Assembly (NCBI GenBank): GCA_022539475.1 | Contig: VCMS01000238.1 | Location: 62,001 to 126,000, forward strand | From: Gracilaria domingensis | Lineage: Eukaryota; Rhodophyta; Florideophyceae; Gracilariales; Gracilariaceae | Length of the DNA stretch: 64,000 nucleotides | Direction: 5' to 3' | Part shown: one piece after another, positions 28,139-63,296 of the stretch | Numbering within the stretch: position 1 is the stretch's first letter | How the letters are laid out: each line of letters opens with the position of its first letter | The notes under the pieces: model-generated | The model's input: only the letters and a program-made list of their open reading frames with translations | The model's database searches: none | Told to the model about the DNA's origin: nothing | Made by a program: the position numbers and the translations under genes

Positions 28139-28141
28139 ATG

Positions 28142-30071: not shown

Positions 30072-30088
30072 CCTCTGTCTCTTGCAGA

Positions 30089-30345
30089 TGCTAGTTTTTG
30101 GCGAGGGTCGTCTAGTAAATTTTTTGAAAAAATATCGAGATCAATTATTTCAAAATTTGGAGATAATTGCTTGGGTCGTCCAGAATCGCTGTGCAGTAAA
30201 TACTGGTGGGTTTTCCACTCGTGCTAGTTCTTTAGTCGAGGGCTACCTGAACTGTATTTCGCGAAGTCTAGGTTCAGTTTCCATTAAGGTGCACATTACA
30301 CGATACCTTCTGCGGAATGATACCCTGCAACGCATGGAATACTAG
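30089..30345 (+). CDS. Unrecognised exon-like ORF (85 aa)
   Basis: Immediately after a good acceptor-like site (CCTCTGTCTCTTGCAG, ending 30088), a frame runs from ATG through about 85 codons with normal protein composition (LVFGEGRLVNFLKKYRDQLF; TGGFSTRASSLVEGYLN). I do not recognise the family. It may be the last exon of a gene whose upstream part was lost where copy B was broken. Confidence 0.35.
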
Positions 30346-30547
30346 TGCTAGTACAGATGATGCCCATTATGAAATCATACCGTTTTATTCGTATCTATTC
30401 TTCTATCGACCGCTTTTGCTAACCACTACTTCGCTATATTACATGTACCATATCCCCATGATGGAGCGGGTGTAGGCGCAATCTGCGGCAGATGCCGCAG
30501 ACTGCACGTCCACCATCGGCTGTATCGGTAGAACAAATACGCACTCC

Positions 30548-30580
30548 GAGAGGATGAGGCGCGAAGCGCGTCATCCTCTC
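30548..30580. repeat. Hairpin
   Basis: GAGAGGATGA and its complement TCATCCTCTC flank an inner GCGC-GAA-GCGC stem-loop. Confidence 0.6.
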
Positions 30581-30584
30581 CATT

Positions 30585-30630
30585 CCTCATGTAGGGAACC
30601 ATGCCCAGATGCATGGTTCCCTACTTGAGG
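30585..30630. repeat. Hairpin
   Basis: The perfect 14-bp stem GTAGGGAACCATGC (loop CCAGAT) is extended outward by CCTCA/TGAGG after one mismatch. Confidence 0.65.
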
Positions 30631-30674
30631 AACCTGCACCTGCAACTCGTGAGCTACGTCCGCATCAAAAGTCA

Positions 30675-31191
30675 TTTACCTTTATACGCAAGCGGAAAGT
30701 ATCCATAAGTTAGTCAATGATCCGTTGGATACATTTGAAATGCGATGGAACGTACCATTGATAAAGCAAAACAGAAACGTTGCGCTAGAAAAGTCGAGGG
30801 ACCTAGTAACTCGCAAAATGAAAAAGAAGAAGGAAAGGGATCGGTTAGATTACCAGCCCACCATCATCGTAAAGCGCGAAAGGTGTCGAAGCGAGAACTC
30901 ACAACCAAGGACACCAAGAATGCCCATGCAGCAAATATACCGCAAGATGCGATAAACGAAAGAGCCGCCTATGTCCCAACCAAGTACCAGAATCGCCTAT
31001 CCCGAACAGCCAGAGATCGATCTTGAGAGACGAAATGAAATTGGTCGTTTACCTGTACACGCAAGCAGAAAGTATCCATACGTTAGTCAATGCTCCGTTG
31101 GATACATTTGAAATGCGATGGAACGTACCATTGATAAGCGAAAACAGAAACGTTGCGCTAGAAAAGTCGAGGGACCTAGTAACTCGCAAAA
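30675..31191 (+). repeat. Pair of about 145-bp direct repeats
   Basis: 30675-30818 and 31049-31191 are near-identical (shared blocks include GAAAGTATCCATA and GTCGAGGGACCTAGTAACTC). A 230-bp unrelated stretch lies between them. Function unknown. Confidence 0.7.
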
Positions 31192-31455
31192 GTAACCTAA
31201 AGCCTTTTTCCTGCCGTTTACATGTCGCAGAGCGCGAAGAGACGCGGTGAGGATTGATTAGTTTAGAACAAAGATACGTAGAAGGAAATGGAAGCACGTA
31301 CGAAAAGACTGCACGGAAAGACTGCACGGAATACATCCGTGAGATACGGATGCTGTCCGCTTTATGGAGGCGTCCGACGAGGGCGGAGAAAGAGAATGAG
31401 GTACGCTTCATGTCCGCTTAATGGAATCCATTCTCATCACGCTACTTCGTAATCC

Positions 31456-31515
31456 GTCGTACTTTTTTCCGCCCTCGCACTTCGTAGCGAGTGCGAGGGC
31501 GGAAAAAAGTACGAC
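31456..31515. repeat. 26-bp-stem perfect hairpin
   Basis: The stem begins GTCGTACTTTTTTCCGCCC and is exactly complementary on the far side, with an 8-nt loop TCGTAGCG. It is 365 bp upstream of the transposase start. Confidence 0.75.
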
Positions 31516-31879
31516 AGAGCGGAGTAAAACGCGAGGATGGCACGGATCACGACGGTAACAAAAGGTCGGACGTCGAACGGGCGGGGGCGGCGGCGGAGGG
31601 AAGAGATTTATTTTTCTGTGCGAGATTGGACAAGTGTACAGCGTACAACGTTGGGAAACCACAGGTTTATAACCAGTGGTAGATAATACGAGAAGTACAC
31701 CCTTGTGTTGAGGTCGACGTGTACCTACGTTCCTTTTTGAACGAAAGCACGTTTAAACTCAAAATATATTCTCTGTTCTGAGAAACACGTCGATATTGAC
31801 TGTCGCTCGACCTCCTTCTCCCTTCGGACGCCCTTCCCTTGCAGTCTTTGTCGTCGTTTCTCGTTCATTTCTTCTTCCC

Positions 31880-34800
31880 ATGGTCTACTACTGTACACAC
31901 AAGAAGCGTGGGTGCCCCTTCGTTACTCGCCGAGGAGTCTTATCTCTTCAACAGCATGTCAACCATTGCCCGTTTCGTCTGAAGGCAGCGCTGGAAGACG
32001 AGAATAGCCGGCCCATTCGGAGAAGCAAGCGTCTCAAGCTTTCCGCGCCCGCGCCCGCATCTTCCGAAACGGTCACTGCCCCTTGTCGCCTTCCCGAGCC
32101 TTCGGTGTGCGAGGACATCGTCGACCCCACTCCGTGCGCCCCTCCCATTCCGGACACTTCGCACTGTGTTTCTCCTTCCCCGGGTCCCGCGTCATTAGAG
32201 CGAGAACACGGAAGCAGTTCCCGCCCAGTGCCTTCTGAGGAGACCCTCGGTGATTTGCATATGGATTATCTCACGGTTTGTCTGGCTTCAGTAGCTTCCA
32301 ACCTTGGTCATCGTGAGGCTGACGAGCTAATTGGGCTACCTCGGGACCCGCGATTCTCGCAAAAGCGATTCAACGAGACCATAACAAGTTCCAAGCGCTG
32401 TACAGAACTGAAGAACGCCATTTTCGAACGATACGCCTCAAAGGACGGTTTCAATCGAAGAACTGTCTCGCCAGAAGGATGTAAGTTCAGCGCCACCCTC
32501 TACACGAGAGACCCCGTTCAGACACTTGTGAAACAGCTCTAGTTGGCTAACAACGAAAACACATTCTTCCACCCTATACCTCAGACCCACTCCACGAAAA
32601 TATCTCACCCCATGTCCGGCTCTCTCTCAAGAGACGCCACCTCAAAACTTAAGGAAATGGTCATGGGCTCTTTGGATAGTAGAATAGTGTGGTCCTCCCA
32701 AGAAATGAGTTACAGTGAATCTTTCGTAGGTCTTCTGCAGGTATACACCGATAAGTCTTCAACAACTCTAAAGCAAACATCGGTTACCGCCTATCCTCTT
32801 CACCTCATATTTCTCAACTTCTCTGACGAGCTTCGCCGTAAGTGTATCCGTGATGACTTCACAGTAGTGGCATACTTCCCTACCACACTGATCGAGGTTT
32901 CCGTATCTGAAGCAGACGCAATGCCATTCGTTTCTAGCAAGTCTCTACGCGAGTCCAGGATGCAAATCCTTCAAGAATCTCTTCGTCAAGTCCTGGAGCC
33001 AATTCTAAATCTCACGCAGAAAGGTTTTCAGTTCATCGGCGAAGACAAACTAAGTCGAGTGTGCCATCCTCTGCTTGCAAGTTATTGTGCGGATATTCCT
33101 GAGGCTAAGGACATTCTGTCCATTCTTCATGGGACCAAAACGGAAAGCCCGTGTCATAGATGCAAAGCCCCTCGCTCATCTTTATGCAGTCCTATTCCCA
33201 CCTCATTCAACGGACGTTCTCAAAAGCACACGAAAAGCATCCGAAAGACATACACAGCTATCTTGCAACATGCACAAAAAGACGAGGCGGAAAGACGTCC
33301 ACGTCGTGCGAGGGAGAGGAGATCTCAAGCGGATACTCTGATGCGTTCAAATTCCATATCTCTCATTCCTTCGTTCCTCGAAACTTCCGTAAGCCTTGGA
33401 ATGATCCCGGGATTGTCTCCATACAGTCTGTTCTCATTCGAACCATTACACAACTTGCATCTCGGCATCTCAAAGTTGATAAAAACGGCCACAATCGAGA
33501 GACTGCAGTCAGACACCCTGTGCACCACAATAGGAACATCTGCATCGCGTTCATTTCGAACGATACGCACCCAACTCCTCAACCATGCAAACGCAATTCT
33601 AGCTGCCACAGAACGCGATTCTCCTGCCAAAGGTTTACATATCGATTTCTCCACGCAGGAGAAAGGCAAATCTTTGAATGGTATCTTCACGAAAGACGGT
33701 CTCCGTGGAATGCTGGAGGCCAAAAACTACAAAGCACTTGACATGGTCTTCCCCTTCATAGGAGCATTCTTTGACATATGCTGTGGAGAACAGGACGTTG
33801 CCCCAATCACAACCGTTTTCTCTCAGTACTCGGACTTGCTTTCGACCTTATTCAGATACAATCGTGACCCGTATTGGACTGAAAGCTCTCTCCTGTGTCT
33901 TAGTTCGGAGATTGAAGCCTTCAAGCGTTTCGCAACAAAGACTCTGGCGGATTTTCATCCCTCCAGACTGAGAACTCTGAAGTTTCATCTTCTCGATCAT
34001 CTCGTGGACGATATTCGCCGTCTGGGAAGTATCAAGTACTACGACGCAGGCATATACGAACATGCACACCTGCTATTTAAAAGACACTACAAAAAGACGT
34101 CCAGAAGAACAGCAACGGCTGTGGAGGAGACTATTCGCTCCATTGAGCACGGACATGTTAGAAAGCAATGGAATGGCAATACTCCTTACCAGCGTAATCC
34201 AGGTTTACCAGGAACTTCCACACAGCTTCCTCGGTTTGCAATGAGAGGGCGTTCTTTCACTTTACGAGCTCTTCAACAATTTGTTTCACGTATGTCCAGT
34301 TCAAAAACATGGACTGCTGTTAGAGAGATGTTCTCAAGTACGGACACAAGGTCGATTCTTGACCAAATTGGTGAACAGGCCCTTCCTCCTTTCCTCAGTC
34401 TCGTGAAAGAAACACTGGATGAGCACTCTATTACATACTTCCCAGAAAAGACAAGGATAACTCTGGTGAATTCGGCCCTCGTGAAAGGCGGTTTCGTTCC
34501 GACTCTTGAACACTTCGATTCGTCTTCTAAGGCACTTAAGCTGGGACGACCCAAATACCCCATCATCCAACGTGTCTTCGCTTCTCCAGCATTTGGTCCC
34601 AGTAGAAAGCCAAAGTTTTCCACTGTATTGGTAAGCGGAGAAGATTCAGAGACTTGGGTTGCCCAGGTAGTCGCTCTGATTCGAATATCTCTCCTTGATT
34701 CTGCACTTACCGCACCAGAGGTGGCATTCGTCCGGTATTTCGAGGTTTTACCCCCCGCAACAAACATCGACCACATATTGAAATGCATATCTTTACGGTG

Positions 34801-35059
34801 GGCTACAAACGATGAAAACAACCACACTCTTCCGTTCCCTCGTCATTCCAAAGCGGAGACTATCGTAGAGTTAACTCCTTGGTACGGGATGGTTCCGGCT
34901 TCTGCACTACAGGGAACTGTCCATGTTGTTCGATCAAACTACCCTGCTCCACCTTTTTGTCCTCCACTTCAATGGTTCCAACACCGATTCTACATCAATC
35001 GATTCTATCATGATTCAGATGAAGGACCAACTGAGCACGTTGATCTTGTACAGCCTTAA
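31880..35059 (+). CDS. Second tnp2/Plavaka-like transposase, one in-frame TAG
   Basis: From ATG 31880 the frame runs 220 codons to a single TAG (32540-32542) and continues in the same frame for 838 codons, about 1059 in all, close to the length of the transposase at 24387. The N-terminus has a C/H zinc-finger pattern (YYCTHKKRGCPF ... LQQHVNHC). The second part has the R-R-K 'NFSDELRRK' block, ADIPEAKDIL followed by CHRC, EPLHNLHLGISK (an aromatic-leucine-His block like the third catalytic region), and a C-terminal FHLLDHLVDDIRRLGS ... YEHAHLLFKRHYKK block typical of these transposases. The upstream ATG choice is favoured over the open TTG at 31796. The TAG could be a mutation, a sequence error or a read-through site. 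Its stop overlaps the convergent gene at 35056 by 4 bp. Confidence 0.75.
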
Positions 35060-37451
35060 ACATTAAGGGCTCCATCTTCTACATGTTCACCTTGTGGTGC
35101 CTTTTCTTGTGATCCTGTGTTAAATCCGAAATCGTTCATGTCCATTTCCTTGAACTCCATATCCCCTTCCTCGCATTCACCAACGAAGCAATCGCTAATA
35201 GACCCCAATCTTCGGCTCACACTGTCAATAAAAAATTGTTCTTTCACAGTGAGGTAAAGTCTTCCGTTCGACGGCATTCGATATCCAAATGTAGCCTCTC
35301 TCATGTCATTACCAAGAACCTTAGTCCAATCTTCCGTTGTCGTTCCAAAATTATGAAACTCGCTGGAATTGGTCCTCAAGACATGTTGCCTAACATCCCC
35401 CAGAACATTCTTTAAACACAGAGGTAGCAGTTCAGCAAACTTCTTTGTAAACAGTTTCTGTCTCTGGCCACCCCTTGACACATCCGTACTTAGAAGGCTC
35501 ACAACCGTCAACACCCAAGCGTCCAAACGTGCGAGCAACAGTATTGTGCCATCTAAAAAGGTGCCCGTATCCTTGTCTTCCACATCATACCCAATAAACT
35601 CCTTCAGCACTTGTACCCCGACACGGTTTCGGAAGAACAAGTCTTGATCTTCCGTCGGCATATCCTCGACATTGTCCGCATTGGAGTACTTTAGACGAAC
35701 AAATGGGGCTTTTCTCCACCATGAAGTGTTCGGTACACCATTTTCGTCAAGACGCAGTATGTTCTCCTGCGCTTCCTTCAACTGCATTATGAGTTCGTCA
35801 GCATTCTCTTCTACCAGCTTTGTTCTTCTCCAAATCAGATCGTAACCCAGGAGCAGAAATAGTTTATCCCTCGTATTTCTCTTACGAACGCCCACGACGT
35901 CACTCATGGTCTGCCGCATTCTCTGCCTAAGGCACATATCTGCACAAAGTTCCAGTATAAACCTGTCGGTAAGAGATGCTTTTCTAATACCTTCCCAGCT
36001 CAACTCCTTCAACTCGCTTTCAACCATTTTCTCCAGCAAAGCATCCGGCCCCCCCTCTACCGACGGTGTGAACATGCCAAAACTGCCCAAGAGCTCCACG
36101 GGGTTTTTAGGAACCATGTATGAACCACCTTCCTCCGGCTCAATAAGCCCTTTCCCCCCACTCTCAGTTGCGTCTTCCACCTTCTCGGCACGGTTACCCC
36201 AATTTCGGGTTAGCGACTCACCTTCGAGCCATAGCTCACTTGTTTCTCTCCTTGCCCACGTCAGCATGTTGTGATACACTGCTCGAGCAACCCCTCGAAA
36301 CTCGTCGCACACCTCAATTTTATGCTTCTTTCGACCTGTCTGCCCAGGTTCACCAGCACGTGTACTCCTATCTCCCTCCTGTTTCAGTGCCCCTCTTAGC
36401 CCTTCAATGACTAGATCCTTCTCTTCAAGCCTCTTTTTCAAAGCCGTACTCTGCTCTTGGGCGACCTTCACTAGAATTCCCCGAACCATCAAGTTCTCTT
36501 GTAGCGTCTTAACCTTTTCTTTCAAGCAATTCAGTTCATTTAAAAGATCACGTCTGTTCATAGAGGTTGATTTCACACCAGTGTGGATATCTTCCGGTAT
36601 TTCCCTAGCCTCTTCGGCGACAGGCCCCGGTAATGCCGCAAGATTCGGTGTTATTTCGTTATCGGAACTATCCTCATGTGCCATAGCCTTAGACACGAGA
36701 GGCTGCAGGCGTTCTGTGTCCACCCTTGGCACGGCTCCGAGCTCCAACTCCCGTGTCTGTCCTCCTTCATGGCATGGTATATCAGATGAATTGGGCCTCG
36801 TACGAGCTGCAACGGCCCCCGTTCTTGGAAAGAGGGGAAGGTCGAGAGTAACTCGTCTATCAGTTGTCTCTCGATTTCTTATTGTCCTTCTCCCTTGTCC
36901 GGACCCATTGCGAGGCATGATACGATTCATAGCGGCCCCAGTTCTAGAAGACAGGGATGGACGTGACGATCTTAATATACTAGGGCTCTCACGACTTCTC
37001 GTCATTGTCCCTTGTTGTCCAGATCCACTGGGCGGCGTAACCCGCGCCCCAGTAGCTCCGGTCTTCGATATCGGCCGGGGACATGAAGGTTTTGGTGTCA
37101 TACGAACCTCTTCAGTTCCAGTTGTGATGCCCTCCTGTCCTGACCCGCTGGGCCGAGTTACCTCATCTTCTTGAGGAGCAGAGACAGATGCACGATTTGC
37201 ATTATCAGCAGTTGACGGCACGACATCGTTCGCTGATCCACGAATTCTTGACGCAATCCCGGAAGACGCTCCGCTGCGAGATGGGCGAGAGAGTCCTGTA
37301 GAAGGACGCTCACTGACTCTCTCCTTCGTCGAGGACGACTTCCGTTTAGGAAGTGCGGTGTTGTAGCCTGATTCGTATCATCCGATCTCTTCTCTTCTTC
37401 TGTCCACTCTTGTTCGCTGCGTACTATTTCGCTTTCTGGCGTTATACCCAT
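35056..37451 (-). CDS. Coiled-coil accessory protein, about 800 aa
   Basis: The main frame (37221-35056) has 721 codons. It stays open upstream, and one extra G near 37367 joins it to an ATG at 37451 (MGITPESEIVRSEQEW). The N-terminal third is low-complexity with three spaced SGSGQ-type repeats and many Pro/Arg residues. A coiled coil follows (about residues 222-288: RDLLNELNCLKEKVKTLQEN). The C-terminal 430 residues are globular-looking and Leu-rich with no motif I know. It ends convergently with the transposase and could be the TnpA-like partner of that transposase. That is inferred from position and architecture. Confidence 0.55.
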
Positions 37452-37698
37452 GTTGTGGAGATAAACAGGGTAATGAAACGCAATTGTTGGGGAGGGGGGG
37501 AGGGGGTGGGGGGGGGTGCATGGTTCAGATATTCCGGGAGACTCCGCAGTTCCTGCTTTTTAGGAATTTGAGGTGCCCAATGGGTCGCAAATATCGCCGT
37601 TACAGATGAAGAGCTCCAGTGTACATGTACAACAACGAGTATTGCAGGCAGCTGCAACACTCACAAGCATATTTACTTTCTATTCGTACTGAACTCAT

Positions 37699-38303
37699 CT
37701 ATTGCTCCAATGTCAGAGCCCAGTCCCAGGCGTACTGCTCTCCGTAGTTGAAATACAACTCTTCGCCCCTCTCAATATCTCTTACTGCTCTACAACGAAG
37801 TAGAGCATAGTTAGAAAGGTCTGACTTAACTGTATCACGGACTTCGCTTCCACCACCTGCACATTGGCACTTCGAGTCCTGTTTGACCGGGGCTCCGATA
37901 AATCGGGATCCCCGGCATGATATCCGGCGTCGTTAATGTAGCCCTCGATACAAAAAGGCGCCGGGACAATGTAGACCTCGCTCTCCTTTCTATCCTGAGC
38001 CTGTTCTGGTCTGTTCCTCAGGTGCAGAAACTCCGTACCAGTCACAGTGACCATCATAGAAAACAACTTGTACCGCACTGGAGTTGCTCCGAGACAGCCA
38101 CTTCCATACGTTAAGTGTCTTTCCTTCCGGTTCGTCAGATCCGTGTATACCAAAGTTCCATAGAAATGACAGATAGTTTCCCCAGCCAATATCTTATGTT
38201 CCGTGAACACCCCCATACCAGCACGGGGATGTCGAATCTTAGAAGATGCTATATGTAAGCGATAGCGATTGGCTTCAACAGTCAACAGCATATGCATATC
38301 CAT
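37699..38303 (-). CDS. SET-domain (lysine methyltransferase-like) protein
   Basis: The domain opens with SSKIRHPRAGMGVFTEHKI and ILAGETICHFYGTLV, the usual SET N-terminal block (GxGVF, then GExI ... YxG). A YINDAGYH block follows in place of the usual N-H-S/x-C motif. The ORF ends at 37782, but one frame over the classic end RDIERGEELYFNYGEQYAW is present and runs to a TAG at 37699. Adding one G near 37850 joins the two. SET enzymes methylate lysines of histones or other proteins using AdoMet. The ATG at 38303 overlaps the upstream DNA methyltransferase by 29 bp in another frame, so both are probably translated from one transcript or were once fused. Confidence 0.65.
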
Positions 38304-40833
38304 AAGATTCAGAGCTCCTCGTACTTCCCTCCCAAAGATCTACAGTACGCTGTCCACACTTCTCGACAAAGTCCCAGTCCTTCCAGTATCTTCCTAGGAA
38401 CTGAGTAATATGTCCAGGCATCACTTGGTACTGGGGGTAACCAAATGGAGCCTCCCATTCAAGCCGACCTCGGTCCCGATGTGGAACCCGTTCATAAGTC
38501 GTTGAAGCCGCATCCACCACCTCCTGTTCAACCAGGATGTCATTCTTCCCCCCGCGAATAACTTCGGCCATAAGAGTCGTTAGATGGTGCTTCGCATGGC
38601 TGAAGCATGGCCTATTCTTCTCGCACCCCAAGAACTTCCTATGCTTTGTCAGCGATAGGCACGCCATACCCGTAGAAAAAGTTCCCGCGAACATGTCCAT
38701 GACAAGATCACCCGGTCTTGTGAAGCGACATATCAACTCCTTCATCAACTCCCTCGACTTCTGCTCCGGTCTTATGTACTGCCCACCTGGTACTGAACTA
38801 CCTGGCTCATGTACCTTCCATGTCAACCACTCCCCCGCTCTCGGTTTGGGCACCCGGTCAATTACATTCCTGTTAGCCGGGAAAGTGGAAGGAATGAAAT
38901 TGTTCTCCTCAAATGGAGTAAGACTGGCTTCCTCCGATGGTCGCAATCCACGCTTCACCCCATGAACGGCGTACTCCGTTACGGGCTGTATCCCAAACTT
39001 CCGTGGATTCCCTCCAACATTACTGCGATCCCGGATGAACACCAGTGGATTCGCATCCACTTTAAACGAAGGCATGAGTTCTGGTTTACCTTCGCTTCCA
39101 GCTTCATCTTTCGTACTCGCCGTTTCCGAAAGTATCCTGTGCCACACATGAAACTGTGCCATGGCACAGAATATAATGAAGTGCCCACCTGACCGAAGCG
39201 CGGAACTTATTAAGTCAGCCGTACGGATCATGTCTTCCTCACTGAAGACATCGTGACCACTATTCCGTTTGTTCCTCTTCCTTCGAGTGTTAAAGGGAGG
39301 GTCTGTTAGGACAAGCTGTGCCTCACCCCATAAAATCTCACTCTGATTCACAAACGTTTCGTGTGTGTGCCTCAGGTCCTTCATGTCACAGTTGTACGCT
39401 ACAAAGTGTGACTTTCTCATCCCCTTCCACACCTTGTCCATATTCATTCGAAGGAGACTGGATATCCCCTTCATGGGCGGCTCAATACCAGTCTTTTGGA
39501 TGTTGTAACCAGCAACCCGAGATTCATGCTCCGCAAGATTCACCGGCTTCTCGAACTCGTCGCTATCGGAGCTCACGAGGTTCATATACTCTCGACGAGG
39601 TGGGGGTGGGGCAGACTTGGTCGAAGAAGGTTCGGCATTACCGGAAGTTTTAGGGGTTTTCGTCAGTTCAATATCAGGTTTCGCGTGAATGCCGACATGG
39701 AACCCTGCCGCATGACGCATATCCTGTATCGGTTTCCATAGCAACTCCGAAAACTTCTGAAATCGAGCAGGCAACTCACCGGAGTCAGAGCTAGATACGG
39801 TATCCATCCGTATCTCCGAAAACTCTATCCAGTTCCTCATCTGATCAACCCGTAAGCTATAGAGGCTATCGTGGGTGCATATGGTTTCGAGGTCTGTCAA
39901 AAACTCCTTAGCCAGTATTCGCAGGTTTGTATCGCATTCATCACTCAAGGTCTCCACCGATCCACTAGTACTGCTCTGTGGCACATCCTTTGTGTTGAAT
40001 CGAGTACTCTGGCTCGGCGGGGCATAACCAGACTCCCGTGTCTCTAGCGCTGTATACTTCAACGTCTGCATATTCATGTAAATGTATGGTTTCACCATGT
40101 GCTGAACGTTCGTGTATCCAAGATGAGCCGCAAAACAACTCCATGCCCATACGACCTCACTGATAGCGAATCCCAGTCGATCACAGTTGTCTTTGGAGAA
40201 CGACGTAAAAGTGGGTATGTACACAGCTGGTGCATGGTTCACTTTTCGTTTCTTTTTCGGTTGTTTCTTCTTCATCATTCGGATGTTGTCGTTCTCTCCC
40301 ATTATGTGGCCGAGGTATGATAAGTATATAACGACCTCAAATGGGTTCACAGCTGTTGGTGGGATGAACACTGTCGTCTTCAGAACCTGCTTTCTCCTGG
40401 TCATGAAATAACCAACCAGGCATCGCACCGGTAGGTATATACCCATATCCATAGAGAGAAGGAAAAAATCGCGCAGTCTCTGGTCCTCATCCCCGTCCTT
40501 CTTGTCAAGAAGCTTCGTTACAAGATATCGCTGTTCCACAGGTTTGTTATTCACAACACTCTTTCGCAGCTGTTGCAGTGTCAAGTTCTGCAGGTTCTTG
40601 GAGTTAGTGGCCTCCTCAAACATCTTCCTTGCCTCCGGAATATCCTTATAGTTCTCGGCGCAGAACTCTATTAACCCTCTAAACCCCACGTCCCGTGGCC
40701 GATCAGGGCCTCCATCGCTGTTTGCCAAAGCATCGCGAAGAACCAAGAAAAGTCTGACATATGCATGGAACGCCGGAGGCGGAGCACTCATGTCGATAGG
40801 ATGTATCTCCTCTCCAACATCGGTGGAATCCAT
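38275..40833 (-). CDS. Beta-class DNA amino-methyltransferase, nuclear, 852 aa
   Basis: The C-terminal half is an AdoMet-dependent amino-methyltransferase. Motif IV TDPPF (510-514) precedes motif I PGDLVMDMFAGTFSTGMACL (707-726), followed by FLGCEKN. That order defines the beta class of N6-adenine/N4-cytosine DNA methyltransferases, and the DPPF form favours adenine. Residues 1-480 are not recognised. They include PKKKRKV (192-198), identical to a classical nuclear localisation signal, and acidic linkers (MNLVSSDSDEFEKP). Such bacterial-type enzymes are rare in eukaryotic nuclei. The gene faces the palindrome hub, with a TTTAAA box about 30 bp before the ATG, and is followed by the overlapping SET gene. 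It could mark the element's own DNA. That role is inferred. The ORF is intact. Confidence 0.8.
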   Translation of the reverse strand: MDSTDVGEEIHPIDMSAPPPAFHAYVRLFLVLRDALANSDGGPDRPRDVGFRGLIEFCAENYKDIPEARKMFEEATNSKNLQNLTLQQLRKSVVNNKPVEQRYLVTKLLDKKDGDEDQRLRDFFLLSMDMGIYLPVRCLVGYFMTRRKQVLKTTVFIPPTAVNPFEVVIYLSYLGHIMGENDNIRMMKKKQPKKKRKVNHAPAVYIPTFTSFSKDNCDRLGFAISEVVWAWSCFAAHLGYTNVQHMVKPYIYMNMQTLKYTALETRESGYAPPSQSTRFNTKDVPQSSTSGSVETLSDECDTNLRILAKEFLTDLETICTHDSLYSLRVDQMRNWIEFSEIRMDTVSSSDSGELPARFQKFSELLWKPIQDMRHAAGFHVGIHAKPDIELTKTPKTSGNAEPSSTKSAPPPPRREYMNLVSSDSDEFEKPVNLAEHESRVAGYNIQKTGIEPPMKGISSLLRMNMDKVWKGMRKSHFVAYNCDMKDLRHTHETFVNQSEILWGEAQLVLTDPPFNTRRKRNKRNSGHDVFSEEDMIRTADLISSALRSGGHFIIFCAMAQFHVWHRILSETASTKDEAGSEGKPELMPSFKVDANPLVFIRDRSNVGGNPRKFGIQPVTEYAVHGVKRGLRPSEEASLTPFEENNFIPSTFPANRNVIDRVPKPRAGEWLTWKVHEPGSSVPGGQYIRPEQKSRELMKELICRFTRPGDLVMDMFAGTFSTGMACLSLTKHRKFLGCEKNRPCFSHAKHHLTTLMAEVIRGGKNDILVEQEVVDAASTTYERVPHRDRGRLEWEAPFGYPQYQVMPGHITQFLGRYWKDWDFVEKCGQRTVDLWEGSTRSSESYGYAYAVDC

Positions 40834-40845
40834 CGCTTCAGCGCA

Positions 40846-40943
40846 AACAACGGAGGCGAGCCTTTAAATGGCGACTTACGCTGGGCACCCCCGCTTTCGG
40901 CAGCTCCTCCCAGCGCACTGCCAGTCTCGTCCGTGTCCGTGTC
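40846..40943 (-). promoter_or_regulatory. Duplicated promoter module, methyltransferase side
   Basis: About 98 bp that recur in inverted orientation at 42209-42307 with very few differences. Both contain TTTAAA (40863-40868 here), the TAAGTCGCC-type block and GGACGAGACTGGCAGTGCG. The module directly precedes the methyltransferase ATG at 40833. Confidence 0.7.
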
Positions 40944-41099
40944 CGCTCGGAGCGATAGCGTCGCGTGTCGGAGCGATAGCGTCGCGTGTCGGCCACGTCG
41001 CGATTCGGAGCTATTGCAACGGTCCCGTATTGTGCTAAAAGTCGCGGATCAAGTGGGTGTGAAGCGCTAGTTTTCTCTAGTTTGATATATGTGTACGGC

Positions 41100-42010
41100 G
41101 TGTGCAGCGAAATCACTGCCGGAAGTGCCGGGAGGAGTGTTTTGGGAGGTCTCCGGAAGGCGCCGGAATGTGACCAGAACGTGCCCGCGGGCGGGGGGGT
41201 CCGGTCGTGTTAGGGTAGGTACCCTAACACAACCGGACCCCCCCGCCCGCGGGCATAAAATCGCACATTTTTCAAAAAATCGTCCAAAATGTGCCCGCGG
41301 GCGGGGGGGTCCAGTCGTGTTAGGGTACCTACCCTAACACGACCGGACCCCCCCGCCCGCGGGCACGTTTTCGACGATTTTTTGGCACCCTCCGGAGACC
41401 TCCCAAAACACTCCTCCCGGCACTTCTTGTACCCACTGCGTCACCTCAGTGAACCATCCCGGAAATTAGGGAGTGTCTGGAGGGTGGAGAAGACGGGATG
41501 GTCACCTCAGTGCACCATCCCGGAAATTAGGGAGTGTCTGGAGGGTTAAGATGACGGGATGGTGCACTAAGGTGACGCAGTGGGTACAGGAAGTGCCGGG
41601 AGGAGTGTTTTGGGAGGTCTCGGAGGGTGCCAGAATGTGGCCAGAACGTGCCCGCGGGCGGGGGGGGTCGGTCGTGTTAGGGTAGGTACCCTAACACAAC
41701 CGACCCCCCCCGCCCGCGGGCACGTTTTGGGCGATTTTTTGAAAAATGTGCGATTTTATGCCCGCGGGCGGGGGGGGTCGGTCGTGTTAGGGTACCTACC
41801 CTAACACGACCGACCCCCCCCGCCCGCGGGCACGTTTTGGGCGATTTTTTGAAAAATGTGCGATTTTATGCCCGCGGGCGGGGGGGTCCGGTCGTGTTAG
41901 GGTACCTACCCTAACACGACCGACCCCCCCCGCCCGCGGGCATAATCGCAACATTCCGGTGCCTTCCCGGGACCTCCCAAAACACGCCGCCGCGCAGTGA
42001 TTTCGCTACA
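41100..42010. repeat. Array of five long GC-rich hairpins in nested inverted repeats
   Basis: Five almost perfect palindromes of about 74 nt begin near 41182, 41291, 41649, 41760 and 41869. Each runs GCCCGCGGGCGGGGGGG, a short CGGTCGTG, then TTAGGGTA and the mirror image. Spacers share AAAATCGCACATTTTTCAAA in either orientation. Outer segments (about 41100-41170 and 41945-42010, with GGGAGGAGTGTTTTGGGAGG) are also inverted copies, and 41380-41490 mirrors 41550-41640. A 61-bp direct repeat carrying CCATCCCGGAAATTAGGGAG lies in the middle. The array separates the divergent methyltransferase and ParB-like genes. It could be a regulatory hub, protein-binding centre or replication site; the sequence does not say which. 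Confidence 0.85.
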
Positions 42011-42208
42011 CCCGGCCGCCGGTACGTTGGCGCCGCTGTCCACGTGTATTGGCGGGAGTAGGCTGTACATGGAAGTGAATGAGTGTACTCTTGACTACTA
42101 TGCAAAGCATTTGAAGAGCATGATTAGAGAACGCGACCATTGCTCGCGTGAGTCATCATTGCGCGAACTCCACGACTCTAAAGCGTACAATCAGCGTGCG
42201 AGCGGCCA

Positions 42209-42307
42209 CGGACAGGACACGGACGAGACTGGCAGTGCGCTGGGAGGAGCTGCCGAAAGCGGGGGTGCCCAGCGTAAGTCGCCTTTTAAAGGCTCGCCTC
42301 CGTTGTT
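42209..42307 (+). promoter_or_regulatory. Duplicated promoter module, ParB-like side
   Basis: Inverted copy of 40846-40943, with TTTAAA at 42285-42290, 77 bp before the ParB-like ATG (42367). The matched modules imply co-regulation of the two divergent transcription units. Confidence 0.7.
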
Positions 42308-42366
42308 GTATCGTCCCGAGCGAGCGTATTGTTGATATACACCTTTCACTGCAATAGCTGTTCAAC

Positions 42367-44766
42367 ATGAAGCCAACTCGTGTTCGAAAGCGTACGCAAA
42401 GCGTGACTCCTCGCACTCGGCGGAGCACTCGATTATTGCAAGGTGGAATGCGGGTTTCTCTGCAGATGGATATTGAGGATGAAGGAAAGGTGATAGTCGG
42501 GGAAGCGTTGTTGCATGGAATTGGAAGTGTTCTACGCCGCGAGTTGCACGGGAAGCAATTGGACACAGGTCTTGTGGTGGTTCATAATATTCTCATCAGT
42601 CGAAGCGGTCAGACGTTCTACCCTTACCGGGCGGAGGGCCTGGATCTTCCACAATATATCCAGGATCTCCGGACGGCCGCTCCTTGGGATGAGAAAATGA
42701 TGGAACCGGTGGCAGCCAGCATTCCGGCGTCGAAGCGAGGAACGGTGAGCGCTATGAGTGAGGTGATGACGCCGACAAGCCGCACGGAGCCAATTCGAAG
42801 TTCATCAACACCGAGAGGTAGCGCATCAGTAGCACCTCCGCGGGCAGGTCCGTCGTCTATTACGAAGCGGTCTATGGAGACGAGAGCATCCCCAGCTACG
42901 AAGCGGACAGGTCAAACAAAGTCTACCTCCGCTACGAAGCCCACTGCGTCGAAAAGGGCTTCTCCTGCGATGAATCAGACCGTCGACACAAGGGGAACTT
43001 CTGCGTCGAAACAGACGGTTCAGCAGGGGACGGCTGTGCAAGAGGAGGAAGATGAGATCATGAAAGGTCCCCTTCCAGACGCGGATGCGCAATCCGCGCA
43101 AGGAGCTGGTCCATCTGTACCCCAAACTGCACCAGAAACTGCGGAGCAGCAGGACGATGACGTTGTGCTTCTGTCCGCAAGAATGGCACGTTCAAGTGTT
43201 TCTGGCGAGCGGTCTGGAACACAAGGGACACCTACTCGGAGCAAGACGTACAGACGAATTCGTCAGAAGGTACCAAAGGTGAACCTCAATCAGTATCGGA
43301 TGGTTGTTGTTACTGTTGACATCACTCTGGTGGACACTCCGCCCAATTTACTCCGTGGAGTAAGTAAACGCCACGTTGAAGCCCTTGTGAAGAGTATGGA
43401 GGAGCGGGGGATATTGCAGTCGATGGGTTCTCCAGTGGTGGCCTTACAAGATGCTACTACGGGAGAGAGGGATACTGACAAGGGACGCCTAACGAAGAAG
43501 TGCTTCATTGTAGATGGTTTGCATCGTCTGAAAGCTATACAATATTTGGCAGGACTGGTGCACCGAAGTGGAAGCGATTAGCCAAGTTTTGGCGTTGCAA
43601 TCTGCTGATACGAAGAGATGGGAGGCCCATTGGGATGAAGGAATTGTTATGTGTTGCTTCGTACCTCAATGAGTCGACGAGTACCATGCGAAGGATGATG
43701 TTTGCAGACAAGATACACTCTATAGTTAGTGTGGTCGCCATTCTAATTGAAGATGTTGAGGGGGTGACGCCGGCAGACGTGGATCCTGCAGAAGTGACAG
43801 AAGTGTTGAAGGAGAGCCAACTGATTGGGACTGTGCAAGAGCGTCAGTACCTGAGATATGCCAATGTCGCCCTGCAACTCATGTCTCGTGAGGGAATGCT
43901 GGCCCATTTCGAGGATATATGTGAGACTGTGAGTGACATAGGTCTCACACATCTGTCCCATACTCCGCTATATGTTTTGGATGCCGAGGAGTTTTCCTTC
44001 ATTCTTGATTGTCTTCAGATGTTTCTATTGAAGGGCAAGTCGACGAAGACAAAGCAATGGAAAAGCTTTGAGGAGGTTCGAGGTTTCTTTTATGATAGAG
44101 CAGTGTCTCTGTTCCGCGCGGCTAGAGCAGTGAGGAATGAACTGAACGAGGAAGAGTCCATGGAAGTGTTCCTGAAACGCGAAGTCAGTCTTTCTACTCC
44201 ATCGAATGAAGATGACGTTGAAGACCCAGACAACAACGCAGCTGTGTATCAGTTCCTTTTGGGACAAGTTGTGAACTTCAACACTTTGCCGCGTGTTCGG
44301 AGCAGGACGAACTCAATTAGAACTGCCACGACTTCCGTTCAGAATCGATTGCGGACGATGCTCAAGGTAATTCCGCCCCCTGCACCAGTGAAGCAGTCCG
44401 TGACAAAGAGGAGGACTCCCGCTGCTGCTGCTGCAACATCTGCCAGTGAAGAAGGGGAGCCGCGAAGAAGTGCACGAGAACGGGCGCAGGTGAGTTATAG
44501 GGAAATGACACGGCCGAAATCGAGGTGCCATAGAAGTTCTGGATAGCTCTGAAGAAGAACAGCGGGCTCCGCCGAAGAAGAANGCTGCAACATCTGGCAG
44601 TGAAAGAAGGGGACCGCGAAGAAGTGCACGAGAACGGGCGCAGGTGAGTTATAGGGAAATCGAACACGGCCGAAGTCGAGGTGCCATAGAAGTTCTGGAT
44701 AGCTCTGAAGAAGAACAGCGGGCTCCGCCGAGGAAGAAACGGAGAAAGACTTCACACAACAGATGA
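42367..44766 (+). CDS. ParB/sulfiredoxin-fold-like nuclear protein
   Basis: The ATG at 42367 starts a basic N-terminus (MKPTRVRKRTQSVTPRTRRS). About residues 140-225 are Ser/Thr/Lys-rich tandem-like repeats (SATKRTGQTKS, SATKPTASKR). A ParB-like core then follows: the VTVDITLVDTPPNLLRGVSK segment, SMEERGILQS and IVDGLHRLKAIQ, the equivalent of the ParB 'GxRRxxA' motif. The frame ends at 43581 but continues one frame over (WKRLAKFWRCNLLIRRDGRP) if one G is added near 43552. A long helical region and a basic tail (PPRKKRRKTSHNR) end at TGA 44766. Bacterial ParB-like domains bind DNA or CTP, or act as nucleases, and are often found beside DNA methyltransferases. The role here is inferred. The C-terminal part crosses the duplicated sequence around the N at 44583. 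Confidence 0.6.
44427..44740 (+). other. Contig-overlap duplication around a single N
   Basis: 44427-44582 and 44584-44740 are two versions of the same about 155 bp, both starting GCTGCAACATCTG, separated only by the N at 44583 and differing by a few small indels. This is what two overlapping contig ends look like when left unmerged. If so, the ParB-like protein has one copy of the RRSARERAQVSYRE segment, not two. Confidence 0.7.
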
Positions 44767-44783
44767 GATCTACTCTGAACAGC

Positions 44784-46404
44784 ATGACACCGGATGACCT
44801 GATGTCTCAACTAAATGAACATGTGCTGAGAGGAAGGTCGATGAAGGTTCAGTTCGTGGCATTGGAGAGGGAGCGAATGCAGAGAACGCAGGCAGTTCTG
44901 CATTTGTGGATGACGAAGAGCTTCTTTCTGTGACAGTTCCACGGGTTGTCACCGTCGAGAAAGATGCTGCGCCAGACGATCAGCAAGAGACAGGTGGGGG
45001 GTCATTTGATGACGAGTTACCTACAGCTCTTCCGGAATCTGAGGAGCACGGACTTGTTCGAGGTGACCCATATGATGGCCCACTGAACCCATCATGGTGC
45101 GGGTATGCCAGGCTGAGACCGCAGGAATGGCAAGGGAAGAACGTAATTGAGCACAAGGACCCCTGGCTCAGAGTCATTCACTTGCCGAAGGGACATAGGT
45201 CGGAGCTGCTAAGTGTCTCGAATCTTAGAGATGTACACCATCTTGTCTTTTGGCACGCTGCAAGGGCTGAACATCGCCTACGGGCGGAGACATTTGGTAT
45301 GCAGTATCCTCGTACTCGACCGACAGGTATGGATGATGAAGAGGTGCTGTGGGTTGCTGCAAAGGAGCATGACGAATTTGGGCAAATGTTCTTCGCCCGA
45401 ATGCAAGCTGAGCTAAGGCAGAATGGATATTGCGTGCTTGATGGCTTTGCGACGGATAATGGTGTCCCTAAATGGGAGGAGTTGGAAGAAGTTCGGGAGT
45501 TCGGAGATGTGTCGGGGAAGTTGGTGGACTTCTTCGAGAATGAGTATGGAGCGATGCCGGATATACGGAAAGGAGAGGAACAGAAGTCGTTTGTTCAAAT
45601 AATCAACGATGATGAAGGATGGAAGGACGGTAGCGATGGACCATTTGAGGGGAGAGTGATGTCGACACGTTGGGGTACGGTGGAGAAGCCGGAGGATAAT
45701 GAGGAGCTCAGGTGGGTTGTAAGGTCGCGTGCTTTACTTGATGTTCGAATGGGTACAATTGCTGCGGCTTTGGGACTATGGGACAATGAAAGGGAAGCTG
45801 TGAAGATGTACACTCCGAAAACTGGTGGTCGATTTCTGGGGACGACGAGAAAGTGCAAGCGCCAGACGCTGCACACCGACTTCAGTGGTCTGGTTACGAA
45901 GGAAACAATGAATACTGGCAACCCCGGATACTTTGTAATGGCCTCTGGGAAAGAGGGCTTCCTCTCTGGGTGAGCGCTGGAAGCCATCAACTGGTGGGGA
46001 TGAACAACCAACAGTTGCGAGTGATGTCGGAGGTGTATCCAGCGAAGAAGATAATCATCCCACCGTACTCTGTATTCGTGGGCCGTGGTGATGTGACACA
46101 TGCTGGAGCAAGTGGGAAGGACAAGGTGGATAGGCCCGAGTCTATGGATTTGCTGGTTAGATACCACATGTACATGGTACCAGAGGGCTACGCACTACCT
46201 GATGCTGTTCATCGGGTGCGGGATTTCCGACCCACGTTTGTCAATGGTGACGAGGAGGAGGAGGCGGAGGATGAACTGTTGTCCGATAAGGAGGTTGGGC
46301 GGTTGACATGGACGAAGACCAAGTGGTCGTGGAGATTGGTGTGGAAGCGGACGCCGGTAGAACCGAAGTGCTCGAGAGTAGTAGTGATGACGATTTGCCA
46401 ATAA
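44784..46404 (+). CDS. 2-oxoglutarate/Fe(II) dioxygenase-like protein
   Basis: The ATG at 44784 (MTPDDLMSQLNEHVLRGR) joins the main frame with one G near 44836. The main frame (stop at 45973) contains YCVLDGFA, a common dioxygenase N-terminal block, and LHTDFSG, the H-x-D iron ligands. After one more G near 45955 the next frame supplies LPLWVSAGSHQ, RGDVTHAG (third iron ligand His) and LLVRYHMY (Arg for 2-oxoglutarate). The full facial triad is therefore present. The C-terminus is acidic. The substrate is unknown; relatives hydroxylate or demethylate nucleic acids, proteins or small molecules. Next to a DNA methyltransferase, a demethylase is an attractive inference only. The start lies just 17 bp after the ParB-like stop. 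Confidence 0.6.
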
Positions 46405-46754
46405 TGAGGCTGCGAGCGCCTCGAAGTGGATGAGAATGAGATGATTAGTAAATTATGTGTGTCTTGCGAGTATTAAGAGTAGTATACTATTACAAGGCTA
46501 TACATATGAACATAGAAAAGGTGCGGCAGGCTGGTAATTGAACAAATGTCATACGTCTTTGGTCCAGTTGCGTCTAATTGCAACATGCCAAATGCTCGGT
46601 ATCGTTAACATCATTGGTGGCACCAGTCAATTCGCAATTGAACATGTAGCGTCCTAACACTTCTGAAACTGCACTTAAGGTTGCTTTTAAGAGAAGTATA
46701 TGCAGTTCCTGTCTATGCGGTACTTGTGGCAGTATGGTGACTGTATCAGGAAAA
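46405..46754. other. Intergenic region, probable edge of the methylation element
   Basis: 350 bp without ORFs. No terminal inverted repeat matching 30-31.8 kb was found by eye. Confidence 0.35.
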
Positions 46755-47588
46755 ATGGCAGAGGAACAGAGAGACTTGGCGGAAATTTCACCAAATACCT
46801 TGTCTAAGTTCATATATGCCAATGGTTACGGTATATTAAGTTCCGTTGATGGAACGTTGAGAGAGAAGGAGAGTCAATTCCAGAAGAAGTTGTGAAGTGT
46901 ATGAAGTTCATTGACGAACGTGTTGGTTTCGGACTTGTCACAGGGGGTGATGTGGGCGACGTGGAGGGGAAAATGGAAGGACTCGGAGACTATAAGTTTG
47001 GTGTCTCGGCGAATCATGGAGCTTTCATGCGTTTCTCTGACGAGAGGGAAATTAAGGGTGCATTCAATGATCACACCCTTGACCACACTGTTGACGGACT
47101 ACTGTTCCTGGCAAGGATTTGAATAGGAGGCATGGTATTGTGAATGATGATGACAAGGGGTTCGTGGAGACCAGAAGTGATAGTGGCCTTCCCAATTTCG
47201 TGTACAACAAACTGTGCAGTGGAAAGAAGAAGTGGATTCTGCTATTGGGACCTGTTGCAGAAGATGGATGCGTTTGTTATCTATCCCGGCGATAAAAGTT
47301 GCGAAATTGTGGACAAGCGATACACAAAAGGAAGCGGAGGAGAAAATCTTGTGGATAATGAACCGAGATTTATTGATACGGATGACGTCGTGACGTTCGG
47401 AAGTGCTTTGAGCGACGGCCTTTGCATGAGGTAGGCGTGTACGGCGTTCACGTCAAAGAAGATTGTATCCCGCGTGGAGTACACAACCTGTTCGAAAGCG
47501 TGGAGGATGTACATTCGACAATTATGTTGGTGGCTCTGTTGTACGGCTACGAGGAAAAGCAGCACGATAAAAACCACCATGAATCATA
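46755..47588 (+). CDS. HAD-superfamily protein, copy 2 (left arm), four frameshifts
   Basis: Starts MAEEQRDLAEISPNTLSKF, then YGILSSVDGTL (motif I), VGFGLVTGG (motif II) and VTFGSALSDGP (motif IV). It is a paralogue of the HAD gene at 47620-48513, with which it converges. The nucleophile Asp of the D-x-D-G-T motif reads Ser (SVDGT), so phosphatase activity is doubtful. Four frame breaks (near 46868, 47115, 47215 and 47417) are each cured by one G. At the last three the otherwise near-identical right-arm copy (63297-64000) has that G. The breaks are therefore either recent mutations or sequence errors. Confidence 0.6.
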
Positions 47589-47619
47589 GAAGGGTATTGA
47601 GATATATACGACACTTTTA

Positions 47620-48513
47620 TTACTGAGATCTCATATCATAGCTAAGTATTACAGGCATCGTAGCACTGGAAACAAATTCCAAGAGCATTTCTAAACCATT
47701 GACACTTGCATTTCTGTACCCGTACAGTTCTGCCACCCTTCTGATGGTCTCATGCACGTCCTCCACCCCATCAACAAGATATGTTACCGCTGGTGGAGGG
47801 TCGTCTCCCTTCACATGAACTGCGAGGGTTGCCATTTCATATAGAGGACCATCATTGGAAGCATTCCCGAAAGCAACGATTAAATGTGTGTCGAACTGGG
47901 GGTCGTTTTCAACCAAGGCTAGCGCCCCACTATTTTTCGTGAAACGAATGTCCCCTATGTCACAGTTTTCATCTTGAGGGTACGCAACCAGGTTCGGAAA
48001 GGATGTCAACACTTTTGAAATACCGGAGTTAACTTCTGTTTTCCACTTCGATAGTCCATTGTACGTGAAGTTAGGGAGTCCACTGTCTTTTCTAGTGCTC
48101 ACCACTGCTTGTTGACGCTCTTCGTGAAGTCCGTGCGATTCATTTAAGGAGAGTGCAAGTCTCTCAAGTTCGGCTGCACATCTTTCGTAACCTTCCCTGT
48201 CAAGGTCCTGATCAATTTCGGTGCCATTGGATAATCTCACCCGTGCGCCTTGGTTTCCAGAGATGCCAAAAGTGTAGCCACCCAGGTGCTCCATGAAACT
48301 CTCGGCATCCTCTATATCTCGCCCAGTAGCAATTCCGAAACCAACGCGTGCGTTGATGTACTTCATGCATTTGACTGTTTCGGCAGGAATGTTCTCCCCA
48401 GCTCTTTTCAGAGTACCGTCAACATCACTAATCACGGCGTAGCCATTTTCGAATATTTCGTTAGCCAGCTGCTGAGGAGTTACTTCTTGGGCTCTAACTT
48501 CCGAGTTATACAT
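47620..48513 (-). CDS. HAD-superfamily (Cof-type) sugar-phosphatase-like hydrolase
   Basis: About 297 aa from the first ATG (48513, MYNSEVRAQEVTPQQ). It has all HAD landmarks: ISDVDGTL (motif I, with both Asp), FGIATGRD (motif II Thr), a basic/polar cap region, and IVAFGNASNDGPLYEMA (motif IV, with Asn-Asp). The spacing and the 'VDGVEDVHETIRRV' tail fit the Cof/sucrose-phosphatase-like branch, which dephosphorylates small phosphorylated metabolites. The substrate cannot be told. It converges on the broken paralogue, 31 bp away. Confidence 0.75.
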   Translation of the reverse strand: MYNSEVRAQEVTPQQLANEIFENGYAVISDVDGTLKRAGENIPAETVKCMKYINARVGFGIATGRDIEDAESFMEHLGGYTFGISGNQGARVRLSNGTEIDQDLDREGYERCAAELERLALSLNESHGLHEERQQAVVSTRKDSGLPNFTYNGLSKWKTEVNSGISKVLTSFPNLVAYPQDENCDIGDIRFTKNSGALALVENDPQFDTHLIVAFGNASNDGPLYEMATLAVHVKGDDPPPAVTYLVDGVEDVHETIRRVAELYGYRNASVNGLEMLLEFVSSATMPVILSYDMRSQ

Positions 48514-49109
48514 GTTTTGAAAGCTTTCGAAAGGGTTCGTTTTGCAAATGGGTGTGGGTATACGAATGAGAAGGATGTGATTGATGTTCACAACGTGTTT
48601 CGTAGTATAAAAAGAGTCTAAGAACGACCATATACGGGTATTGTAGTACTGTTTTAAAACGTTACTAGGAGGAGAAGTTTTTGCATCGATTTGAAGTAAA
48701 GAAAGGATGATTTAGTCATAAATTATATGTACGGGTTCAAGTGGGTAAAGAAAACTGTAAATATCTTTAACATGAGCTTAGAAATCAAGAAGAGTAAAAC
48801 AATCTCCATTATGGGTTGAAACCCATAAAAGGTATACCTTACTTTATACGGGTGCCCCAAGTAATGCAAACGCTTAGTTCTTCAGAAATATCACAATTTT
48901 TGTACTTGTTTCGTTACTAGTATCGTGCACTTTAATGATATGGAATGACCATTTTCTATCTAGCAAAATCTTAGCGAAGTATTAGTGATAACGGATGTAG
49001 GATTTAAAGGGGCATATTTGAACCACAGAAGGACGAACAATATAAGTAATGTAATAGGAACAGGTCATTTCGATAAAGTAACTTTTATGTCTAACTATGT
49101 CTAAAAGGT
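48514..49109. other. AT-rich spacer between HAD and reductase genes
   Basis: No ORF or repeat of note. It probably carries the HAD gene promoter. Confidence 0.4.
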
Positions 49110-50748: not shown

Positions 50749-50821
50749 AGATAGTAGCATAAATTTATTGTTTATTACATTGTTACCTTTACGTGTTATC
50801 ACGACTATATTCTCCGTCTCC

Positions 50822-63244: not shown

Positions 63245-63296
63245 CTATGATATGAGATCTCAGTAATAAAAGTGTCGTATATATCTCAATACCCTT

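Follow-up and report, generated by a model that had tools for sequence, protein, structure and literature searches.

A giant Plavaka-group transposon of the red alga Gracilaria domingensis with methyltransferase-SET and putative ParB-like-dioxygenase fusion genes

Organisation of the F1 element

F1 is a giant transposon of the Plavaka group that occupies positions 30072..52749 (22,678 bp, the boundaries that its copies hold in common) of a 64,000-nucleotide stretch of Gracilaria domingensis DNA, here called the window (contig C238:62001-126000 of a genome of 77.9 Mb in 680 contigs). The element encodes a transposase (31880..35059, plus strand), a coiled-coil protein (35056..37451, minus strand) and two divergent fusion genes, one of which joins a beta-class N4/N6 DNA methyltransferase (MTase) to a SET domain (37699..40833, minus strand) and the other a ParB-like domain to a probable 2-oxoglutarate/Fe(II) dioxygenase (42367..46404, plus strand). 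A first-pass annotation of the window had proposed a mobile element between 31880 and 46404 with six separate proteins. All six protein types lie where they were noted, but the element in fact extends from 30072 to 52749 and unbroken copies encode four proteins, MTase with SET and ParB-like domain with dioxygenase being fused. The split into six results from breaks in the window copy: its transposase is cut short by a premature stop at 32540, and its coiled-coil, SET and ParB-dioxygenase frames are shifted. All four genes are intronless, with open frames found in single natural copies; introns suggested by gene models were rejected as they disappear in unbroken copies. Aligned with the window, ten fetched copies form a single colinear repeat with limits at about 30098 and 52749, and an interpretation as two neighbouring elements was rejected because the copies are colinear through the whole block.

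The transposase is 1059 amino acids (aa) long in unbroken copies and matches PF18759 with an E-value of 1.4e-18 (67.7 bits against a cut-off of 26.3), in agreement with its first-pass description as tnp2/Plavaka-like. A frame of at least 1059 aa is present in four of the nine copies that have the region (C120, C591, C187 and C8), and six more loci (L002-L007, L006 being the C120 copy again) carry the gene without stop or gap. The coiled-coil protein measures 798 aa in unbroken copies, its frame is whole in two of nine copies, and it matches no known family in profile search.

The MTase open reading frame of the window (38278-40833, 852 aa) is open and carries a PKKKRKV nuclear-signal motif, while the SET frame of the window (37782-38303) is frameshifted. 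A copy on contig C237 (L042) encodes both in one frame of 1055 aa, 1045 aa from Met, in which N6_N4_Mtase (PF01555) spans residues 506-743 (3e-15) and SET (PF00856) residues 873-1032 (2.4e-7), both over cut-off. The 1055-aa frame is free of stops in 8 of 150 scored MTase matches, and the MTase domain exceeds its cut-off at 150 places in the genome (150 scored of 328 candidates, some of them partial). PF01555 is over cut-off in F1 and in three diverged families, F2 to F4, which are described below; in F1 a value of 2.3e-15 is also reached. Across these families motif IV (DPPF, DPPY, NPPY or EPPY) comes before motif I ([FY]xGT), which is the beta-class order, and the DPPF/DPPY forms would make N6-methyladenine (6mA) the more likely product over N4-methylcytosine (4mC). 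The SET domain yields E 0.02 in the broken frame of the window and 7.3e-9 in an unbroken copy (36.4 bits against a cut-off of 22.4, positions 1-105, full length), and it is also over cut-off in F2, F3 and F4. Its core reads INDA in F1 to F3 (YINDA in F1) and INHF in F4, and F1 copies have ELYFDYG or ELYFNYG. The first-pass calls of a beta-class methyltransferase with a nuclear signal and of a SET protein are thus borne out.

The ParB-dioxygenase gene encodes about 1300 aa in some copies. Locus L041 (contig C28) holds it as a single frame of 1298 aa, the C-terminal part of which is shifted relative to C591, and stop-free frames of 1294-1308 aa occur in 7 of 63 scored matches (860 candidates). 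The ParB-like domain lies near 43290-43570 (plus strand), where a weak match to PHROG family phrog_3264 was found (E 7.7e-4, 1.5e-3 in a second run); a genome-wide scan with this profile gave a best E of 7.0e-4 and detected 10 of 14 controls. Alignment with hhalign to the ParB_N domains of two phage/bacterial proteins, L131 and L072, gave E 0.0034 with a probability of only 9.5%. Since nothing in the protein matches PF02195 and the PHROG and hhalign matches are weak, the domain is termed ParB-like and not ParB, and the first-pass call of a ParB-like protein has weak support. The probable dioxygenase core, placed by its motifs near 45870-46190 (plus strand), contains HTD, GSH, GRGDV.HAGA and RYHMYMVPE in both F1 and F2, with the histidine of THAGA/FHAGA and the RYHMY stretch conserved between the two. 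It is this HxD..H..R pattern, common to F1 and the diverged F2, that makes a dioxygenase probable, profile searches having lent the earlier call no support. The motif is HTD, not the HxE that is a hallmark of the PE type in TET+ Plavaka elements.

The two fusion genes are separated by a divergent spacer (40850..42303) that is bounded by an outer inverted repeat of 89 nucleotides (nt) with 99% identity, so that the two gene starts are near-identical mirror images. Inside it, five 110-bp units that are 69-97% like the reference unit form two blocks (41182..41978; starts at 41182 and 41292, then at 41649, 41759 and 41869). Each unit contains a palindrome, with the core GTGTTAGGGTA/TACCCTAACAC, whose arms measure 36-55 nt and are separated by a 2-nt spacer. 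When the 26-nt core is counted with up to three mismatches, the window has five, all in the spacer array; at the same site C591 and C71 have four each, C120, C22 and C18 three each, and a deletion derivative on C63 has seven, while C187 and C8 end before the region. Palindromes of other sequence are found upstream of the MTase gene in F3 (arms of 84-176 nt), F2 (48-nt arms, 96%) and F2b (33 nt, 88%). The F1 core includes TTAGGG/CCCTAA, a telomere-like motif that host factors could bind.

Termini, mobility and copy number

The left terminus of F1 reads CGTCTGTCTCTTGCAG and the right terminus CTTTGCAGAACACAGACG, and the ends CGTCTGT..ACAGACG constitute imperfect terminal inverted repeats; in the window copy the CG of the left end reads CC. 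Joined flanks from four insertions were used to search the genome, and for the insertion on contig C63 four uninterrupted relatives span the junction with 88-97% identity. Two of the three empty sites fetched read CTCTACGGCCCGG and the third CTCTACGACCCGG, and the filled site reads CTCTACGG-element-GGCCCGG. This comparison identifies GG as the target site duplication (TSD) and CG as the element end, and an earlier assignment of CG as the TSD was dropped. The C63 insertion is the whole of the TSD evidence.

The Plavaka-type features found are the PF18759 transposase, the imperfect terminal inverted repeats and the 2-bp TSD at C63. The termini fit neither PlavakaA (TGT..ACA) nor PlavakaB (CATCA..TGATG), and the element is assigned to the Plavaka group because of its transposase, with neither subgroup claimed. 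Judged from these features, F1 is a real transposon of this group, predicted to move by cut and paste. A direct repeat of 1.93 kb with 99.7% identity and TG..CA-like ends is present at 8892-10824 and 28139-30071 of the window, and its second copy ends exactly where the left end of F1 begins.

The genome contains 487 exact matches to the 21-base left end, a number that includes deletion derivatives, and CG precedes 465 of them; a reversed-pattern control occurs 0 times. A 2-kb query from the transposase end of the block finds matches of 98-100% identity (40 scored of 733 candidates) and a 1.6-kb query from the dioxygenase end matches of 97-100% (40 scored of 297 candidates). The genome holds hundreds of F1 copies, whole or partial, and F1 has apparently been active recently. 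A count of full-length copies is difficult because many run into contig ends. Five of the ten copies fetched (C120, C100, C71, C169 and C591) include both the transposase and the dioxygenase and all that lies between, apart from small deletions in some; the remainder are interrupted by a gap or the end of a contig, truncated (C22) or carry large internal deletions (e.g. C63). One short internal-deletion derivative, L010 (C63:147753-157752) together with L032, has retained the palindrome array and the two ends. A second F1 copy is represented by its right part at 60019..64000 of the window (minus strand), tail-to-tail with the first and about 7.3 kb from it, and is without the part that matches 47815-49693. 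A single N at 44583 in the first copy separates duplicate stretches of about 153 bp (44430-44582 and 44584-44738); the duplicate is missing from all seven fetched copies that cover the site, and N and duplicate are probably an assembly artefact.

Diverged families and conservation of the gene set

The gene set of F1 recurs in F2, a family that has the same genes in the same order with 23-51% identity where compared. The F2 copy on contig C22 encodes a coiled-coil protein of 822 aa, a SET protein of 200 aa and an MTase of 830 aa as open frames in the F1 order, which are 36% (383 columns), 43% and 30% identical to their F1 counterparts, and a Plavaka match adjoins these genes (C22:687175). The other side of the element is seen in the F2 copy on C12, where a ParB-like homologue is broken into two long pieces of 24% and 23% identity and a dioxygenase core is 41% identical over 157 residues and 51% over 57 flanking ones. 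F2b (C84) has SET after MTase, with a break in the frame. In F3 (C6, 45-46%) one frame covers SET and the C-terminal part of MTase, and in F4 (C382, 24-29%) one frame covers MTase and SET. Retention of the set in the deeply diverged F2 speaks for its being of some use to the element. F1 lies beside F2 in C22, and in L038, near 4640-4750, the F1 left-end repeat stands directly upstream of an F2b MTase gene, which points to insertion of one family within or next to another.

The arrangement of the genes can also be followed among the best-scored matches, one C22 pair in each of the following sets being made of an F1 gene and an F2 gene. MTase and Plavaka matches within 12 kb of each other form 39 pairs, of which 32 show the convergent F1 orientation and 7 another; 27 of the 32 are spaced 5.3-5.9 kb apart, over F1-, F2- and F2b-type size classes. 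MTase and ParB matches form 45 pairs (41 divergent, 4 otherwise). The first-pass proposal of a mobile element with its own gene set is well founded on the 487 left ends, the common termini, the empty site and the set and order kept in F2. It had suggested a search for further copies, terminal repeats and empty sites, all of which were found, and the contrary outcome that it envisaged, no second copy or a group of unrelated host genes, clearly fails. Another such outcome, a domain call that profile searches do not bear out, does apply to the dioxygenase.

Between F1 copies the pooled ratio of nonsynonymous to synonymous differences (pN/pS), taken against one reference copy and with common changes counted repeatedly by the pooling, is 0.43 for the transposase, 0.51 for MTase-SET and 0.50 for ParB-dioxygenase, which is a purifying signal in all three genes. 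Between families pN is 0.22-0.52 and pS is saturated, for which reason no ratio is given.

Proposed function of the fusion genes

The general proposal that the F1 genes serve self-marking or counter-silencing is, on the sequence features described above, evenly balanced between acceptance and doubt. The transposase, perhaps together with the coiled-coil protein, would move the element. The ParB-like half of its fusion protein would bind the palindrome array between the divergent genes, where the dioxygenase half would oxidise a methyl mark on DNA or protein, and at this site MTase-SET would write two marks, an amino-methyl group on DNA and a methyl group on lysine. The F1 promoters would thereby stay active or recognisable as self, and F1 would stay expressed and mobile despite host silencing. 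A more specific form of the proposal, which we put forward tentatively and with more doubt than confidence, is that a phage-type pair of ParB and MTase was split, the MTase being joined to SET as a double writer and the ParB-like domain to the dioxygenase as an addressed eraser, around a palindromic address, and that the whole would form a heritable switch, able by itself to write and erase marks without recourse to host methylation. A switch accords with the mirror-image sequence from which the genes of writer and eraser start on either side of their presumed target.

Dam times transposition of some bacterial elements, and SET domains can act on non-histone proteins. An alternative role in the control of transposition would have the DNA mark signal the replication state and so time or limit transposition, with SET and dioxygenase modulating the transposase or the coiled-coil protein rather than chromatin. 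The DNA methyltransferase does travel with a transposase and non-histone targets of SET are possible, but the MTase-SET and ParB-dioxygenase fusions exceed the needs of a timing device and the palindromes lie in the promoter region, away from the ends, and we regard this role as unlikely.

A number of observations weigh against the self-marking proposal. None of the fetched F1 copies is confirmed intact for all four genes, and all nine copies compared with the reference have a gap or stop in MTase-SET and likewise in ParB-dioxygenase, although some gaps in the latter stem from the shifted reference L041. The coiled-coil protein has a pooled pN/pS of 0.84, which denotes weak constraint. Histone methyltransferases usually have an NHxC core, and the YINDA of the F1 SET domain, as well as the EPPY motif IV of F4, may speak against enzyme activity. 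The ParB-like domain has no ParB match in Pfam, PF02195 ParB_N included (GmrSD_N reaches E 0.11), its fold prediction is a poor model with a pLDDT (predicted local distance difference test) score of 41.8, and against PDB one search gave no match and another an unrelated best match at E 0.1. The dioxygenase has no match in Pfam or NCBIfam and meaningless ones in PHROGs and PDB (E of at least 0.3); by sequence and profile its best PDB match is unrelated (E about 0.6), and its alignment in viral contigs has no conserved stretch. Palindrome cores number 0 in C100 and 1 in C169. Among the best-scored matches, 113 of 150 MTase matches are without a Plavaka match within 12 kb. No TSD is seen at four of the five insertions that have both flanks, namely C120 (CT/TC), C100 (AG/AC), C71 (TG/TC) and the window; misassembly or recombination may have affected these long copies. 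No target motif stands out: GATC is seen 43 times in F1 (30072-52749) against 78 expected and is less under-represented in other stretches, and the deficit is mild after codon control, codon shuffles giving z-scores of -2.6 in F1 and -2.4 in other families (CTAG -4.4 and TTAA -3.5 in F1).

The state of the copies bears on the further possibility that the enzymes are inactive relics, mostly dead weight that spreads with the transposase, and that the palindromes only belong to the promoters or give rise to hairpin RNA on which host silencing draws. Many copies have an open transposase frame, whereas gaps or stops affect both fusion genes in nearly all copies compared, and the TTAGGG of the palindrome core is a motif known from telomeres and bound by host factors. 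Set against this are frames that are open in families with saturated synonymous divergence, the pN/pS of 0.50-0.51 in both fusion genes and methyltransferase motifs that are conserved across families; single-base gaps are perhaps partly assembly errors. Dead weight is a very unlikely explanation of the fusion genes in our estimate.

Cargo, neighbouring genes and host methylation signals

Captured host-type sequences occupy 46890..50745 inside F1. They comprise a HAD-IIB phosphatase frame (47620-48513, minus strand; PF08282 2.7e-13, TIGR01484 2.3e-11), a decayed second HAD-like piece recognised by eye only (near 46890-47600, plus strand), a reductase-like frame without true profile match (49110-50030, minus strand), presumably ketopantoate-reductase-like, and a ribulose-phosphate 3-epimerase fragment (50458-50745, plus strand; PF00834 1.1e-22). 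A K/E-rich frame of 309 aa (51382..52311, plus strand) near the right end is full length in four of the five copies with a model (the window, C22, C71 and C18; not C63). Such cargo, together with the nuclear-signal motif of the MTase, would accord with enzymes that face the host, altering its chromatin or expression broadly and being retained for that effect. The gene order around the transposase is kept in diverged families and F1 has the putative target array within itself, and a host-facing role appears hardly probable at all beside the self-marking proposal.

To the left of F1 the window encodes another transposase of 1101 aa (24357-27659, plus strand; tnp2 PF02992 E 4.1e-15, Plavaka 1.5e-7), a Hint-module protein (18672-20252, minus strand; PF01079 E 1.6e-13) and a protein kinase (14134-15267, plus strand; PF00069 E 7.5e-36). 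An Rfam scan of the window found nothing at gathering scores.

TET/JBP enzymes are carried by Plavaka, Kyakuja, Zisupton and other fungal transposons, as described in passages of PMC12730594, and the F1 dioxygenase could by analogy be a TET-like oxidase of 5-methylcytosine (5mC) that erases host cytosine methylation, an activity proposed for TET+ fungal transposons, with a separate role for MTase-SET. Its motif is HxD and not the HxE of the PE type carried by TET+ Plavaka. Tet_JBP (PF12851) has no match in the genome, a weak result as all 14 controls were silent too, and none in the F1 proteins, PE-type enzymes being reported as too distant for plain sequence search. The C5-methyltransferase family PF00145 was not found in the genome in a scan that detected 10 of 14 controls and that an intron-split gene could escape. 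The observed/expected ratio of CpG is 0.92 in F1, 0.98 in positions 1-30000 of the window and 0.93-1.07 in other stretches, with no sign of 5mC decay. The lack of a PF00145 match and the near-normal CpG argue weakly against 5mC as the substrate, and we consider erasure of host 5mC distinctly unlikely.

Relation to known systems and significance

Among described elements, Plavaka transposons, TET+ PlavakaB included, resemble F1 in their PF18759 transposase, 2-bp TSD and carriage of a dioxygenase gene, a probable one in F1 (Kojima 2025, PMC12730594). They differ in their termini, TGT..ACA in PlavakaA and CATCA..TGATG in PlavakaB as against CGTCTGT..ACAGACG in F1, and the TET+ elements in a dioxygenase of HxE type, whereas that of F1 is HxD and fused to a ParB-like domain. 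The word ParB has 0 occurrences in the main text of PMC12730594, and the passages of it considered here mention no element-encoded DNA methyltransferase or palindrome array. HarbingerS transposons, of the Harbinger group, are like F1 in having a SET domain in a DNA transposon (cited in PMC12730594). A functional analogy is offered by VANC of the Arabidopsis VANDAL elements, an element-encoded protein that binds its own element and counters silencing (passages of PMC5735166 and PMC10398659). No sequence relation between VANC and F1 is known, and the route proposed for F1 is enzymatic. For HarbingerS, we know of no fusion of SET to a DNA methyltransferase.

The combination of a ParB-like domain with an N4/N6 methyltransferase has a eukaryotic parallel in the algal ParB-MTase transposon, a DNA transposon of 21.5 kb for which self-marking has been proposed. 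There the two are one protein of 1104 aa, whereas in F1 they are two divergent genes, joined to dioxygenase and SET, in a Plavaka-type element. Family-alignment scans yielded 80 viral loci (the best 80 of 92) and 40 prokaryotic loci; only the catalytic core of the MTase (about residues 484-790) aligns with these phage and bacterial relatives, with 23-51% identity. Two of the three relatives scanned with Pfam (the longest of 13 frames viewed) are ParB_N-MTase fusions, and ParB with a beta-class MTase is therefore a known prokaryotic partnership. These two proteins, L072 and L131, combine a ParB fold with a beta-class MTase, a pairing that the ParB-like domain and MTase of F1 may share; there it forms one protein, with no SET or dioxygenase. 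We infer that the F1 arrangement may have arisen by the splitting of such a phage-type pair. Each part has known precedents. In the open-licence literature searched, none turned up for the set as a whole, for a fusion of MTase with SET or of a ParB-like domain with a dioxygenase, for the two fusions as a pair or for the palindrome spacer.

The occurrence of bacterial-type DNA amino-methylation in nuclei is a matter of dispute, and such methylation is mostly tied to MT-A70 enzymes. Background on the subject is also found in a 2026 review of fungal DNA methylation, which, in passages that do not mention PF01555 enzymes, names the bacterial-type N6-methylase MetB of another Pfam family (PF02384; PMC13297926). 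A beta-class MTase at 150 scored places in one genome makes the question directly testable by long-read sequencing. Natural MTase-SET and ParB-like-oxygenase fusions would be new tools, and F1 would be a clear case of a transposon that encodes its own epigenetic control.

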